NCBI GenBank assembly: GCA_022510865.1
Contig: JAFLSQ010000008.1
Coordinates: 1 to 64,000 of the forward strand
DNA length: 64,000 nt
Source of the DNA: Treponema sp.
Lineage (GTDB): Bacteria; Spirochaetota; Spirochaetia; Treponematales; Treponemataceae
Direction: 5' to 3'
Below the pieces are notes generated by a model. That model had not been told where the DNA came from. It saw only the letters and a program-made list of their open reading frames with translations, and ran no database searches. Below, piece after piece: positions 14,046 through 19,126 of this stretch. Made by a program: the position numbers and the translations under genes. Position 1 is the first letter of the stretch; every line of letters begins with the position of its first letter.

Positions 14046-14062
14046 ACGCCACCTTCCAGAAG

Positions 14063-14091
14063 ATTATATGAGAAAAAAAGGTTTTTCTCAA
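14063..14091 (-). promoter_or_regulatory. Promoter of rlmI
   Basis: On the minus strand: TTGAGA (14086-14091), 17-bp spacer, TATAAT (14063-14068). The leader would be only about 11 nt and consists almost entirely of the ribosome site. The spacer contains half of an A/T hairpin (14070-14077 with 14082-14089). Confidence 0.65.
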
Positions 14092-14095
14092 TAAT

Positions 14096-14170
14096 GGCAG
14101 GCGAGCGCCCGCGCAAAAATCAGCGCGGTTCCAGACCCGGACGTAGAATCACAGGGATTTTCTTGCCGGG
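14096..14170 (+). repeat. Left copy of the direct repeat flanking the accessory island
   Basis: The segment resembles 19008-19075 in the same orientation. Its core 14111-14140 is identical over 30 bp to 19019-19048 and starts GCGCAAAAATCAGCGCGG, containing the short inverted repeat GCGC-N8-GCGC. The next ~28 bp are mostly conserved (TAGAATCA.., GATTTTCTTGCCG). No gene is in either copy. Confidence 0.75.
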
Positions 14171-14333
14171 CTGTGCAGGAGGGAAGCCGCATTTCACTCG
14201 GCCGCTTTCTACAGCGAAAACATTTTGATAAGTTTCCTGAGCGACAGCCAGTAAAGGACCGCGCAGTTATTCTTCATAACTGCGCGGCCTATGCACACCG
14301 CACAAACATTTTTGATTGTCAGTACCCCACGGG
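14171..14333. other. Intergenic stretch downstream of the ankyrin/LRR gene
   Basis: No gene seen. The only clear element is the perfect 12-bp hairpin at 14259-14287. Together with 14046-14170 this makes a gene-free gap of nearly 290 bp between the start of rlmI and the end of the LRR gene. Confidence 0.5.
14259..14287 (-). terminator. Strong hairpin, probable terminator of the LRR gene
   Basis: CCGCGCAGTTAT (14259-14270), 5-nt loop, ATAACTGCGCGG (14276-14287): a perfect 12-bp stem located about 45 bp beyond the stop codon of the 14334-16541 gene. The downstream tract on the minus strand (TCCTTTACT) is only moderately T-rich, so termination efficiency is uncertain. Confidence 0.6.
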
Positions 14334-16541
14334 CTACTCTGGAATCGTGATGTCGCCGTCAGTGCAGCAGATGATGACGGCTCTCCTGTACTGGTAGTAG
14401 CCAGATCTTCCTTTGTAATTATGGGACAATCTCCCGTGCCAGCTTTTGTCCCCGTCTTCTTTTTTGAACTTCCACTGGGCTTTCGTGCCGTCGAACTGTA
14501 TGGTCAGATTCGGATACGGAATGACCGGTTCTTTAATATAGTTATCTCTGTAGTAATGATTTTCACTAAGACGCCTTTTGTCAAAATTCTGCTCAAACTT
14601 GCCGTTGCCGAACACGTCGCCGCCCATTTCCACTACACTCCTTGGAATTGAGATGCTCCTCAGATTCTTGCAGTCGGCAAAAGCCCCCTCTCCAATACCC
14701 GACACGCCCCTTGGAATCGTAACGCTTGTAAGCGACTCGCACCCCGCGAACGCAAAATATCCAATGTGCTTTACTCTGCCGGGAATCGTCACGCTCGTAA
14801 GACCGCTGGCGCAGAACGCATAGACTCCGATTTTCGTAACGTTTTCTGGAATCGTGATGCTCGTAAGTGACGTGCAGCCAGAGAAAGCACCATAGCCATT
14901 GGAATCACCATCCCCGCCTGTGTACGCAGAGCTGTTTATTTCTTTCACGGTGTCAGGAATTGTTACTTTTGCAAGCGATGTGCAGCCGCTGAACACACCT
15001 CCGTTGATTGCTGTGACACCGCTCGGAATCACAATGCTTGTAAGAGACGTGCAGCCTAAGAAGGCCATTGCGCCTATAGTCGTAACGCCCTCGGAAATTG
15101 TCACCGTCCTTAACGCAGTGCAGTCCATGAACGCGCGCTCCCCGATAACGGCTCCGCCTAGAATCGTAACGCTCTCAAGCGATGTGCAGGAAGAGAACGC
15201 GCCTGCCATGGAATAGATACTCATCATATAGCCAACGACGCTGCCCATAGAGGTTACGCTGCCGGGAATCGTCACGCTTTTAAGACCTGCGCCGCTGAAC
15301 GCCCCTGTTCCGATTTCAGTTATGCCTTCGGGAAGCGTGATGTTCGCAAGAGCCTTGCAGTCCATGAAGGCACGGTGGCCGATTCTCTTCATGCTGCCCG
15401 GAATCGTGACGTTCGCAAGCGACAGGCAGCCTAAGAACGCGTCGTCCCCGATTTCCTCCACGCCCTCCATAAAAACCACGCTTTTGAGCGACGTGCAGCC
15501 CATGAACGCACCTCCGACTTTATTTCCATATAGGTGGTAGTTTGACTCGTTGTTGATTTTCTTCACGCTGCCAGGAATCACAACGCTCTCAAGGTACATG
15601 CACTGCATAAACGCTTCTCCAGCAATCTCCGTCACGCCGTCGGGAATAATAAGGTTGTCAGGAAGAGTATCCTTGTCGCACCCGACAATCTTGGTGCCTT
15701 GCATTATAAGATATGATGGTATCTGTTTCGCTTCCGCATTCACATCGTCTGTGCCGTCATTGGCATTCACATCGTGTGTGCCGTCATCGTCATTGGCATT
15801 CACGTCCTCTTCGGCTTCTATCAGAACTTTTGCCACACGCCCAGTCGCATACCTCAGCGCGGTATAGCCGTCTCCGTCCTTGGCGTTCACGTCCGCGCCG
15901 GCTTCTATCAGAACTTCTGCCACGTCCACGGAATTATTCCTAGCCGCATACATCAGCGCGGTCTTGCCGTCTCTGCTCTTTGCGTTCACGTCCGCACCGG
16001 CCTCTATCAGAACTTTTGCCACGTCCGCGGAATTATATATAGCCGCCTCCATCAGCGCAGTTTTTCCGTACTTATCTTTGGCGTTCAAGTCCGCGCCGGC
16101 CTCTATCAGAACCTTTACCACGTCCGCGGAATTACTCGAAGCCGCCTCCATCAGCGCGGTATTCTTGGCGTTCACGTCCGCGCCGGCCTCTATCAGAACT
16201 TTTGCCACGTCCACGAAATTCTTCCGAACCGCCTGCGACAGCGCAGTACTGCCGAAAGCGCTCTTTGCGTTCAAGTCCGCGCCAGCCTCTATCAGAACTT
16301 TTGCCACGTCCACGTGATTATCAATAGCCGCCTGCAACAGCGCGGTCCTGCCGTATCCGTCCTTGGCGTTCAAGTCCACCCCTTCCGCTATGAGCCGCTG
16401 CACTGCGGCAACGTCATTGTTCTTTACCGCAGTTATCAGTGCTTCCACTCTGGGTTCGACTGCCGCACTCTTGCAGCCCGCCATGACCGCAACCAAAGCC
16501 AGCGCCGCAAGCCCTGTGGCAATCCTCGTCATCTTTCTCAT
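14334..16541 (-). CDS. Ankyrin-repeat plus BspA-like leucine-rich-repeat lipoprotein
   Basis: 735 residues. A signal peptide ends VMAGC, predicting a lipoprotein. Residues ~30-240 hold about seven 33-residue ankyrin repeats (consensus GxTALMEAAxxNSxDVAKVLIEAGADVNAK). A short DVNAND-type linker repeat follows. Residues ~270-660 hold many ~23-residue LRR_5 (BspA-like) repeats of the type FxGCTSLxSVTIPxxVxxIG, and the end has the treponemal-style FDGTKAQW and CTDGDI blocks. BspA-type proteins are surface adhesins in oral spirochaetes and Bacteroidetes. One ankyrin repeat lacks 4 residues (NAKNTALMEAA) and the last is shortened (ATGRVAKVLIE). Own promoter at 16573-16600. Confidence 0.9.
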   Translation of the reverse strand: MRKMTRIATGLAALALVAVMAGCKSAAVEPRVEALITAVKNNDVAAVQRLIAEGVDLNAKDGYGRTALLQAAIDNHVDVAKVLIEAGADLNAKSAFGSTALSQAVRKNFVDVAKVLIEAGADVNAKNTALMEAASSNSADVVKVLIEAGADLNAKDKYGKTALMEAAIYNSADVAKVLIEAGADVNAKSRDGKTALMYAARNNSVDVAEVLIEAGADVNAKDGDGYTALRYATGRVAKVLIEAEEDVNANDDDGTHDVNANDGTDDVNAEAKQIPSYLIMQGTKIVGCDKDTLPDNLIIPDGVTEIAGEAFMQCMYLESVVIPGSVKKINNESNYHLYGNKVGGAFMGCTSLKSVVFMEGVEEIGDDAFLGCLSLANVTIPGSMKRIGHRAFMDCKALANITLPEGITEIGTGAFSGAGLKSVTIPGSVTSMGSVVGYMMSIYSMAGAFSSCTSLESVTILGGAVIGERAFMDCTALRTVTISEGVTTIGAMAFLGCTSLTSIVIPSGVTAINGGVFSGCTSLAKVTIPDTVKEINSSAYTGGDGDSNGYGAFSGCTSLTSITIPENVTKIGVYAFCASGLTSVTIPGRVKHIGYFAFAGCESLTSVTIPRGVSGIGEGAFADCKNLRSISIPRSVVEMGGDVFGNGKFEQNFDKRRLSENHYYRDNYIKEPVIPYPNLTIQFDGTKAQWKFKKEDGDKSWHGRLSHNYKGRSGYYQYRRAVIICCTDGDITIPE
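15800..16400 (-). repeat. 99-bp tandem repeats encoding the ankyrin units
   Basis: About six near-identical ~99-bp units, recognisable by the recurring plus-strand block TCTATCAGAACTTTTGCCAC followed by a GTCC[A/G]CG variant. Such similarity at DNA level points to recent expansion by slippage or unequal recombination. Length differences between units are multiples of 3, so the frame is kept. Confidence 0.75.
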
Positions 16542-16572
16542 AATGTTTCTCTCGTGCGTTTTACTTCCGCCG

Positions 16573-16606
16573 AAGATAGTTCTTTCCGCACATGGGGCAA
16601 CGCCCC
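16573..16606 (-). promoter_or_regulatory. Promoter and inverted repeat upstream of the ankyrin/LRR gene
   Basis: On the minus strand: TTGCCC (16595-16600), 16-bp spacer, TATCTT (16573-16578). The -35 lies inside the inverted repeat GGGGCGTTGCCCC (16594-16606). The whole ~65-bp leader is nearly identical to the one before the second LRR gene. Confidence 0.5.
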
Positions 16607-16611
16607 GCGAC

Positions 16612-17469
16612 CTAATATTGGTTCGCGGGAATGTTGCCGTCAGAGCAATGGACTGTCACGCCGTCTAAAAAAGCCCATGGGTCAAGCCTAGTTCCATCTA
16701 TGCTAATCTTCCTCCACTGCGCCTTCGTGCCGTTGTACTTCACTGTCTTAAGATTCCTGCACGAAAAAGCGCCTCCCCCCATACTCCTCACGCTGCTCGG
16801 AATCGTCACGCTCTCAAGCGAACATTCAGCGAATGCCCCGCCGATTTTTGTCACAGTTTCGGGAATCGTAACGCTCTTGAGCGACGTGCAGTTCACGAAC
16901 GCACCGGTCTCGATTTCCGTAACGCCCGCAGGAATTGTGACGCTCTCAAGCGACGTGCAATCCATAAATGCCTGATAGCCGATAGTCCTGACACTGTCCG
17001 GAATTGTGACGCTCGTCAGTTCCTTGCAGCGAGTGAACGCCCTGATGCCTATACTCGTCACGCCGTCCGGAATTACGAGCGTTTTCAGCGCCCTCAGATC
17101 GGGCACGTCCGACAGCGTGATGGTGACATTCTCATAATAGGAAGTGTTGTCTATCTGGCACCACTGCGCCAATGTTCCCATATACTTCACGGTCTTGATG
17201 TTTTCGCAGCCACTGAACGCGCCATAGTCGATAGTCTTGACGCTGGCAGGAATCGTGACAGTCTCAAGCGACGTGCAGCCCATGAACACAAAGGGGACGA
17301 TTTCCGTTATTCCTTTTGGAATCACGAGGTTCGCGGGAACTCTGTCCTTGTCGCAGCCCGTTATTCTGGTGTCGCTAACAGTCAGATATTCCGGAATCTC
17401 CTTGCAGCCTGCGACTGCCGCCATTAAAAATACCGCAAGCCCTGCGGCAACCCTCGTCATCTTTCTCAT
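16612..17469 (-). CDS. BspA-like leucine-rich-repeat lipoprotein
   Basis: 285 residues. Start at 17469 (MRKMTRVAAGLAVFLMAAVAGC) with AGGAG upstream; the frame extends further back but only into the duplicated leader. After the lipobox come eight or so LRR_5 repeats (FxGCTSLESVTIPxxVxxI). They are interrupted by a VKYMGTLAQWCQI block and end with VKYNGTKAQW and VHCSDGNIP. No ankyrin region. The signal peptide is almost identical to that of the downstream gene, so the two are paralogues from a tandem duplication. Likely surface-exposed adhesin-type protein. Confidence 0.88.
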   Translation of the reverse strand: MRKMTRVAAGLAVFLMAAVAGCKEIPEYLTVSDTRITGCDKDRVPANLVIPKGITEIVPFVFMGCTSLETVTIPASVKTIDYGAFSGCENIKTVKYMGTLAQWCQIDNTSYYENVTITLSDVPDLRALKTLVIPDGVTSIGIRAFTRCKELTSVTIPDSVRTIGYQAFMDCTSLESVTIPAGVTEIETGAFVNCTSLKSVTIPETVTKIGGAFAECSLESVTIPSSVRSMGGGAFSCRNLKTVKYNGTKAQWRKISIDGTRLDPWAFLDGVTVHCSDGNIPANQY

Positions 17470-17501
17470 AATGTTTCTCCTGTGCGTTTTTACTTCCGCC
17501 G

Positions 17502-17536
17502 AAGATAGTTCTTTCCGCACACGGGGCAATGCCCCG
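17502..17536 (-). promoter_or_regulatory. Promoter and inverted repeat upstream of the second LRR gene
   Basis: On the minus strand: TTGCCC (17524-17529), 16-bp spacer, TATCTT (17502-17507). An inverted repeat CGGGGCATTGCCCCG (17522-17536) overlaps the -35. It lies in the 76-bp gap after the DUF6261-like gene, so the same hairpin could also act in the upstream gene's 3' end. Confidence 0.5.
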
Positions 17537-17545
17537 ATGTTGTGC

Positions 17546-18244
17546 CTATTTCTTGCTTTTGAGCACTTCCTTCTTGAAATGCTCAATCTCCGTGTTCGCG
17601 TAGTCGATGAACGCGCTGTAAGCGTCCTCGCCCTCCAAGAGCGCGCGGGCGTTCACGTGCTGCACGAGCGTCTTGTACGCCTCCTCGCTCACGCCCCGCG
17701 CCGTCTTGAGCGCGCCCGCGGTCTTTGCCGAGCGCTCGTCCGTGCGCTGCGCGGTGAGGTCCCGCACGCTCTCGTTAGATGCCTTCAATTTTTCCACGAA
17801 CGCGCCGAGCGAAAGCGTCTTAATCTGCTCCGAAAACTTTCCTTCCAAATCCTGGATGAAGTTCATGAGAAGCCCAGTCTCCTTGTCCATCTGCATCTGC
17901 GGACTTATCTTGTAGTCCTTGATGTGCTGCGCGAGCGCCTTCGCCGCCTCCGCAATCGCCGCGTCGGGGAAGCCCTCGTAGCCCGAGACCGCCTTCTTGT
18001 AGCCCGCGTAGAGCCTGTCGCGCTCCTTGTCCGCCTCGGCAATCTTGTCAGTGACAAGGCTCTTGGCGGAAAGCTGCAAGTTGTCGTCCTCCGCCGTGAC
18101 CGCCGCACGCAGTGCCGCAACCTGCTCCGCGCACTTCTCGGCGACCGCCGAATCCTTCTCCGCCCTGTCCGCCATGTTCGAGACGAACAAAAAGTGCGCC
18201 GCGTTGTTCATGTTCACAAGCGATATTGAGCCGATTTCTTTCAT
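17546..18244 (-). CDS. DUF6261-like protein
   Basis: 232 residues, soluble, helical, rich in Ala, Glu and Lys; no signal peptide or membrane segment. The arrangement recalls DUF6261 proteins that I know mainly from Bacteroidetes: ISLVNMNNAAHFLFV at the N terminus, a central KETGLLMNFIQDLEGKF, and a C-terminal EEAYKTLVQHVNARALLEGE then YSAFIDYANTEIEHFKKE. This resemblance is from memory and not from a search. GGAGGG lies 6 nt before the ATG. The 42-bp repeat array lies directly upstream and the two LRR genes downstream, and base use is richer in GCG/CGC than its neighbours. Function unknown; gene transfer is likely. Confidence 0.65.
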   Translation of the reverse strand: MKEIGSISLVNMNNAAHFLFVSNMADRAEKDSAVAEKCAEQVAALRAAVTAEDDNLQLSAKSLVTDKIAEADKERDRLYAGYKKAVSGYEGFPDAAIAEAAKALAQHIKDYKISPQMQMDKETGLLMNFIQDLEGKFSEQIKTLSLGAFVEKLKASNESVRDLTAQRTDERSAKTAGALKTARGVSEEAYKTLVQHVNARALLEGEDAYSAFIDYANTEIEHFKKEVLKSKK

Positions 18245-18330
18245 AGGATGCCCTCCTTGATTTGTATGATTCTCCGCCGCATACCGCGGCGGCCTGTAAC
18301 AGTGTCATGATTTCCACGCCAGAGCCGCGC

Positions 18331-18750
18331 GGAACGCCCAGACGCGGCTTGAAACCGCCTTTCGGACGGCGCGGACACATCAAATACGATTTGATGGCAC
18401 TTTTTATGCCGTGCGGACAGTTCAAATGTGATTTGAAGGCAATTTTTATGCTGTGAGGACGGTTCAAACGGCATTTGATGTCGCTTCTTGCTCCGTGCGG
18501 ACAGTTCAAATTGGATTTGATGTCGCTTTTTACTCTGTGTGGACAGTTCAAATGCGATTTGATGTCGCTTTTTATGCCGTGCGGACACATCAAACGGCGT
18601 TTGATGGCACTTTTTGCCCTGTACGGACGGTTCAAATGCGATTTGAAGGCACTTTTTATGCTGTGAGGACACATCAAACGTGATTTGATGTTGCTTTTCG
18701 CTCTGTGAGGACACATCAAACGCGCTTTGATGTCGCTTTGCCGCGCCGGG
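18331..18750 (-). repeat. Array of ten 42-bp tandem units, each with a central palindrome
   Basis: Eight full units start at 18373 and every 42 bp to 18667. A ninth, partial unit starts at 18709 and a decayed one covers 18331-18372. Each begins GGAC(A/G)(C/G)(A/T)TCAAA and contains an inverted repeat TCAAA-N5-TTTGA with arms of 5-8 bp (for example CATCAAAT-ACG-ATTTGATG in unit 1 and TTCAAAT-GTG-ATTTGAA in unit 2). Arm changes are often compensated. There are no spacers, so it is not a CRISPR. It ends about 85 bp upstream of the DUF6261-like start codon. Because 42 is a multiple of 3, several frames stay open through it. Confidence 0.85.
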
Positions 18751-18786
18751 CAGACAAATTCCCTTGCGGGCATCCGGGCATAAAAA

Positions 18787-18826
18787 AAGACCCGTGACAG
18801 TGCCGCGCGGCAGTGCGATGGGTCTT
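18787..18826 (-). terminator. Intrinsic terminator upstream of the array
   Basis: Outer stem AAGACCC/GGGTCTT (18787-18793 with 18820-18826) around a 12-bp inner palindrome TGCCGCGCGGCA (18801-18812). On the minus strand it is followed by a run of T (plus-strand A at 18782-18788). Nothing but the short leader lies between it and the promoter at 18953-18982, so it would end a transcript of about 160 nt or act as an attenuator. Confidence 0.65.
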
Positions 18827-18872
18827 CTGCAATATGGTCTTTTATCAGCGGGTTTATCTAGGTTTTGAGCCG

Positions 18873-18883
18873 CCCCCCCCCCC
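18873..18883. repeat. Homopolymer tract: 11 C on plus, 11 G on minus
   Basis: Eleven identical bases lie in the leader between promoter and array. Tracts of this length slip during replication. In Treponema pallidum, G tracts near tpr promoters are known to vary in length and alter expression, which makes this a candidate switch. Confidence 0.7.
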
Positions 18884-18952
18884 ACGTTTGTAAAGCGGTT
18901 TTGGGGCGGCAGTCTGCGCTTTCTGGCGCGCAACTTTTTGTATCATAGCGCA

Positions 18953-18982
18953 AGTATAATGCAACACCGCGCGGGCTGTCAA
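18953..18982 (-). promoter_or_regulatory. Consensus-like promoter firing toward the array
   Basis: On the minus strand: perfect TTGACA (18977-18982), 18-bp spacer, TATACT (18953-18958), or TTATAC at 17 bp. Start predicted near 18946. Confidence 0.6.
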
Positions 18983-19007
18983 ACGCAATATCCGTGCGCG
19001 CAATGCG

Positions 19008-19075
19008 GGCAGGCATCGGCGCAAAAATCAGCGCGGTTCCAGACCCGGGCATAGAATCAAAATGATTTTCCTGCC
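19008..19075 (+). repeat. Right copy of the direct repeat flanking the accessory island
   Basis: The core 19019-19048 is identical over 30 bp to 14111-14140. The following bases (TAGAATCAAAATGATTTTCC) and the preceding GGCAGGC are also shared with small changes. Deletion between the two copies would remove about 4.9 kb and bring rlmI and the HAD gene into a simple divergent pair. Confidence 0.75.
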
Positions 19076-19091
19076 GCGCCGCGCATAAAGA

Positions 19092-19120
19092 TTGAGAATT
19101 CTGACTGCGGGCGGTATAAT
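19092..19120 (+). promoter_or_regulatory. Promoter of the first HAD gene; predicts a leaderless mRNA
   Basis: TTGAGA (19092-19097), 17-bp spacer, TATAAT (19115-19120), then 6 nt (ATCATC) to the ATG at 19127. The start codon cannot lie further downstream because the HAD nucleophile motif begins at residue 5. Confidence 0.65.
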
Positions 19121-19126
19121 ATCATC

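Follow-up and report, generated by a model that had tools for sequence, protein, structure and literature searches.

A DUF6261 module and its leader

The window analyzed here is a 64,000-nt stretch (positions 1 to 64,000 of contig JAFLSQ010000008.1) from the genome of a gut Treponema sp. (assembly GCA_022510865.1; 145 contigs, 2.28 Mb). It carries a module of about 5 kb (14046–19126), read leftwards on the minus strand, which is inserted between a methyltransferase gene (12789) and a HAD gene (19127). In the congeners L233–L235 the homologs of these two genes are adjacent, with a gap of about 70–85 bp, and in the window the module is bracketed by two direct repeats of 81 nt (14097–14177 and 19005–19085; 81% identical), the only two copies in the genome. 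The first-pass annotation had taken the genes downstream of the leader for surface LRR lipoproteins. The first of them instead encodes a 232-aa protein (17546–18244) of the DUF6261 family (PF19775; Pfam E-value 4e-47, 160.3 bits against a gathering cut-off of 27), and the lipoprotein genes come after it, namely one of the LRR_5 (BspA) type (16612–17475) and one combining ankyrin and LRR_5 repeats (14334–16541), within which ankyrin-coding 99-bp repeats lie at 15846–16377. DUF6261 has a Shine-Dalgarno sequence, AAGGAGG (18258–18252), and directly upstream of this is a GCCGCC...GGCGGC hairpin (18260–18300), seen likewise at L146, L173 and L177.

The leader begins with a sigma-70-type promoter (18953–18982; TTGACA at 18982–18977 and TATACT at 18958–18953, with an 18-nt spacer) that is aimed at the array, matches the consensus at 11 of 12 positions and shares the top score among 16 promoter-like sites found within 9 kb, against 4.8 in shuffled sequences. 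Starting 69 nt after its −10 element is an exact run of 11 Gs (18873–18883; C11 on the plus strand), the sole G or C run of at least 7 in the 64-kb window; the whole genome has about 29 runs of at least 9, this one included. As would suit SSR phase variation, this putative slippage element is of a length far beyond chance and sits where it could affect expression. It is followed by a predicted intrinsic terminator, a hairpin with a T run (18787–18826), and then by a tandem array (18371–18739) of 8.8 units of 42 bp with the palindromic core TCAAA-N5-TTTGA. The first-pass positions of promoter, tract and terminator all hold. The 167-nt leader has a predicted fold of −59.7 kcal/mol versus −47.6 for shuffles (z = −2.98). 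An inverted repeat reported to contain the tract is also exact (GCCGCCCC at 18910–18903 with GGGGCGGC at 18876–18869); since four bases of its stem are themselves tract bases, a change in tract length alters only the loop, and the idea that slippage acts through that loop is without support.

The conserved leader start is an ATG 6–7 nt past the −10, in the window ATG 18946, which coincides with the predicted transcription start. From here, with the 11 Gs as assembled, the leader ORF (ORF1; 18854–18946) closes after 30 codons, just past the tract: the OFF phase. With 10 or 13 Gs it enters another frame (18241–18933), such that 234 codons are open across the terminator and the array, up to a TGA (18243–18241) that overlaps the DUF6261 ATG at 18244: the ON phase. 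Only in this phase does the leader take the form of a coupled leader ORF, with its stop overlapping the start of the regulated gene and the terminator within its span. The first-pass annotation had arrived at 12 Gs, from a frame starting at ATG 19052. That frame does run into the array as described; its ATG, though, lies upstream of the promoter, about 106 nt before the predicted transcription start, and is thus absent from that transcript, on which ground it was dropped as the leader start. With ATG 18946 as the relevant start, the ON lengths become 10 or 13 rather than 12. Because homopolymer lengths are error-prone in assemblies such as those used here (draft or metagenome assemblies, mostly MAGs, one per species), the OFF state of the window copy is provisional. 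Across these assemblies no individual tract was seen to vary in length.

Recurrence of the leader across Treponema loci

PF19775 is patchy in the genus, occurring in 13 of 98 genomes, and is multicopy in a few of them (5, 10, 21, 23 and 26 copies). Together with 60 further DUF6261 loci that we fetched, the window gives a set of 61. The second DUF6261 gene of the window genome (L036, on another contig), 80% identical to the first, has a G/C tract and an array of 42-bp units upstream and an LRR_5 lipoprotein downstream; its array sequence is unlike that of the window. Arrays with a period of 40–43 bp, nearly always 41 or 42, stand shortly upstream of DUF6261 at 52 of the 61 loci, most of the other nine being cut off by contig ends. 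The conserved order is a sigma-70 promoter, a G/C tract, at some loci a terminator, a palindromic 41–42-bp array, DUF6261 and often a lipoprotein gene, LRR_5 having been found in 18 of the 30 first downstream ORFs scanned (the window's own included).

In five Treponema genomes, 41 loci retain 900 nt or more of sequence upstream, and 27 of these have a tract of at least 8 G/C upstream of DUF6261. With 29–64 tracts per 2.3–2.7 Mb genome-wide in these genomes (0 to 64 per genome within the genus), about one of the 41 would be expected to carry a tract. A promoter matching at least 10 of 12 positions precedes the tract at 52% of the DUF6261 tract loci, against 1.3% of shuffles, and at most of these the tract lies 39–69 nt past the −10. 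At an objective promoter cut-off (score of at least 9; 16 loci), an ATG or GTG falls 6–7 nt after the −10 at 15 (nominal p 1e-17). In none of the 15 does a stop come before the tract, and at every locus one phase or more gives a frame of 175–447 codons; the other phases stop within 17–35 codons, with the exception of L069, which is open in two phases. As assembled, three of the 15 are ON and 12 OFF. Whatever the start codon, a sense frame stays open from the tract to the end of the array at every one of the 26 loci that have both, as compared to 2.85 expected and 9 for the antisense; it comes to within 40 nt of, or runs into, the DUF6261 start at 25 of the 26 and ends exactly on ATGA at 10. 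Many of these loci are paralogs, and hence the recurrence tests are not fully independent. In kind, the slippage-controlled leader of the first-pass annotation is well supported by comparison, its promoter, tract and open frame recurring at paralogous loci; what has been replaced are its start codon, its ON lengths and the role given to the loop. As a separate observation, the leader and array frame at L089, L098 and L117 is in frame with DUF6261, and what the ON phase would yield there is a protein that is extended or part of a fusion.

The tract could also be a promoter spacer or promoter-proximal element, whose length would tune transcription rather than the frame. C-type tracts are often followed 7–12 nt on by TATAGT or TATAGC (many DUF6261 C-tracts have TATAG at this distance), and some G-type tracts of genome G110 by TATAAC (L111–L113, with G9TATAAC); with such −10-like sequences behind them, some members of the family may serve as spacers within promoters. 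Moreover, tracts elsewhere in the window genome sit in TTGACA-G(9–15)-TATAAT spacers (e.g., L221, L224, L209, L210 and L225), so that tract switches of more than one type may operate in this genome. G9–G15 tracts between TTGACA and a TATAAT-like −10 were also seen at L010 and L023, and all these spacer-type tracts of the window genome, several of them directly upstream of signal-peptide genes, mark candidate phase-variable promoters. Neisseria porA, too, has a poly-G promoter, as in T. pallidum. Despite these parallels, including the T. pallidum precedents (PMC7864442), we regard a spacer role as unlikely: the window tract begins 69 nt past a strong −10 and has no −10 after it (CGGCTCAAAACC), and neither the conserved ATG nor the frame open at 26 of 26 loci would be explained.

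That same frame might be the reason for the leader, if ORF1 were a real phase-variable protein with the 14-residue repeats as its product and DUF6261 a mere neighbor. Its openness at all 26 tract loci speaks for this. On the other hand, the three codon positions of the arrays are equally variable, with no synonymous excess; the frame rotates in 41-bp arrays; several Bacteroidota arrays (L192, L194, L196 and L204) are non-coding, with every sense frame interrupted by stops; and a single-sequence model of ORF1 predicts no fold (pLDDT 33). We accordingly dropped the repeat protein as product on the negative codon-position test and give ORF1 as a protein only a small chance. Since the array codons display neither codon-position bias nor protein-level selection, what matters would be the translation track to the DUF6261 ATG rather than the protein. 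It seems that the absence of stops has been kept and that ribosome passage, not a protein product, is under selection. In our reading, the function would lie in ribosomes moving across terminator and array, together with coupling at the ATGA.

Terminators were found at 9 of the 26 loci against 0.2 expected, a lower bound as the scan missed the window's own terminator owing to its inner stem; with the latter, the count is about 10 of 26. Their recurrence, the strength of the window's promoter and terminator and the stable fold would suit a constitutive, terminated regulatory RNA of about 160 nt or a classical attenuator, with the tract having no switching role. We consider this very improbable, as about 16 of the 26 loci are without a clear terminator, the leader sequence is unconserved beyond close copies (the window, L098, L108 and L111–L113 share weak common sequence beyond the G tract, CCTA and the terminator), no match was found in Rfam, and the conservation of the frame would be left unexplained. 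We consider it equally improbable that the tract came along as a neutral passenger in a G-run-rich genome, with the switch inactive in the window copy: the clade's genomes are indeed tract-rich, 14 of the 41 loci have no tract and the window tract is not followed by the TATAAC of L111–L113, but the tract count far exceeds the one or so expected and the window's ON frame is intact over all 234 codons, ending exactly on the DUF6261 ATG.

The palindromic array and the DUF6261 N-terminus

Outside Treponema, 41-bp arrays were found at all six Bacteroidota DUF6261 loci with enough upstream DNA (Phocaeicola, Tannerella, Bacteroides and Parabacteroides), none of which has a G tract, and a Prevotella nigrescens replicon also codes for DUF6261 with a 41-bp array. 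Palindromic arrays in named species include those of Tannerella forsythia (L194:4635–4933) and P. nigrescens (L229:2724–2872). The presence of arrays without tracts in Bacteroidota marks the array and DUF6261 as the core, and the tract as an addition seen only in Treponema. A phage or plasmid origin was considered and rejected: viral_contigs yielded no relative, two unverified fecal 'phage' scaffolds have no array, and a single replicon, that of P. nigrescens, has one.

Within the array units there are inverted repeats (7.1 of 10 for the best arms, 6.1 when shuffled), with one unit per four helical turns. Their arms show 94 G-T against 128 A-C pairs; this lack of a G-T excess argues against a role as RNA hairpins, which was dropped. 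Across loci, array similarity tracks residues 5–12 of DUF6261 (r 0.66, partial 0.63, permutation p < 0.0005), as against 0.29 for the rest of the protein, and when the comparison was slid along the protein, the array was tracked by its first 16 residues only. Thus, the N-terminal class LVN, found in three species with the window included, goes with TCAAA-N5-TTTGA arrays, PLTS/T with TCCGAGGCCTCCGA, YVGG/YIGG with AATTTGGTGCAACAAATT and FLGN with TTCAAGTGCCACTTGAA. In a monomer model, residues 1–13 are extended and confident (pLDDT about 90), helices follow, and the remainder is a 200-residue helical bundle. An extended N-terminus leading into helices is compatible with the start of a ribbon-helix-helix domain, whose fold has a dimeric antiparallel beta-strand ahead of two helices; no clear fold match was found, a fold search returning middling helical-bundle matches only and no clear relative. 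Beyond Pfam, DUF6261 had no PADLOC match and chance-level matches only in PHROGs, NCBIfam and PDB sequences, and in the open-access literature searched it is mentioned in one irrelevant paper.

The covariation of residues 5–12 with the array suggests private protein-operator pairs, and we propose autoregulatory DNA binding by DUF6261, with a specificity private to each operon. The main alternative is that the array and the 5′ end of the gene could have been inherited or moved jointly, as one cassette. More generally, DUF6261 and the adjacent 41–42-bp arrays may constitute an undescribed family of mutually orthogonal DNA-binding protein/operator-array pairs, spanning Spirochaetota and Bacteroidota, in which residues 5–12 would serve as the specificity code. 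Treponema would have multiplied such pairs as autonomous cassettes, to more than 20 per genome; many of these would include lipoprotein genes, and most would sit downstream of a slippage-controlled gate on translation, its ORF kept open to let ribosomes pass rather than for the protein it encodes. We put forward this wider scheme tentatively, holding it nearly as likely to be right as wrong.

A candidate translation gate and its relation to known systems

Taking together the layout, frames, conservation and covariation read from the sequences, we think it probable, if by no means assured, that the leader works as a gate on translation, controlled by slippage, for the DUF6261 operon. Transcription would begin near 18946, and translation, presumably leaderless, from the ATG at, or 1–2 bases from, the 5′ end of the transcript, with the G tract, subject to putative slippage in cells, fixing the reading frame. 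With 11 or 12 Gs, the ribosome would halt within 30 codons, and the hairpin at 18787–18826 and the untranslated array would end transcription early to give an RNA of about 160 nt, the OFF product of the state as assembled. At loci with no visible terminator, we infer that polarity over untranslated RNA would have to substitute. With 10 or 13 Gs, the ribosome would trail RNA polymerase past the terminator and along the array, as far as the TGA overlapping the DUF6261 ATG. Read-through and translational coupling would then allow DUF6261 to be produced, and by the presumed antitermination the LRR lipoprotein genes behind it would be transcribed as well. The array, as DNA palindromes four helical turns apart, would probably be bound by the extended N-terminal segment of DUF6261, and such binding might give each operon its private feedback.

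In the open-access literature searched, nothing relevant was found on leader-type slippage switches or 41-bp arrays. If the gate operates as proposed, phase variation would no longer be confined to the promoter or reading frame of the gene itself but would take in a translated leader on which read-through into a coupled operon depends, and the cassettes, at least 20 per genome and many with LRR or Ig-like lipoproteins downstream, would let gut treponemes vary their surface in a large number of combinations. DUF6261, a family of unknown function, gains a concrete putative partner in the palindromic array adjoining its gene, along with a candidate recognition code.

Among known systems, ToxIN-like type III toxin-antitoxins, which pair a ToxN-like endoribonuclease with processed RNA repeats, have a repeat array ahead of a protein gene, and here as well a tandem array of about 40-nt units precedes the gene. 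Unlike in those systems, DUF6261 gave no PADLOC match and its model is all-helical, the palindromes have no RNA bias, the period is fixed at 41–42 and the terminator lies ahead of the array rather than after it. Ribbon-helix-helix repressors with operator arrays, such as ParR, CopG and Arc, offer a parallel in the extended N-terminal segment followed by helices and in the covariation with tandem palindromes near the protein's own gene; DUF6261 differs in having no sequence or fold match to them and in its 200-residue helical bundle, and its binding is a prediction. The poly-G switches of T. pallidum (tprE/G/J, tp0126 and tprL), with which the first-pass annotation had compared the leader, have the tract within the promoter, where it tunes transcription initiation (PMC7864442). 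The analogy is sound as regards the genus, the G homopolymer near a promoter and the putative surface proteins downstream, and ends at the tract's position, which here is neither between nor next to the −35 and −10 but beyond the latter, where it sets the frame of a leader ORF. In this respect the leader is closer to the coding-tract phase variation of Neisseria, Campylobacter and Helicobacter, in which an ORF carries its tract close to the 5′ end and is long in one phase out of three, the difference being that this ORF is without amino-acid-level selection and that passage to the coupled downstream gene seems to be what matters. Translation-dependent attenuation and polarity relief, with their leader peptides and translational coupling by ATGA overlap, likewise combine a leader ORF, an intrinsic terminator and the overlap of a stop with a downstream start; the input here, however, would be mutational, in the form of tract length, rather than a metabolite or tRNA.
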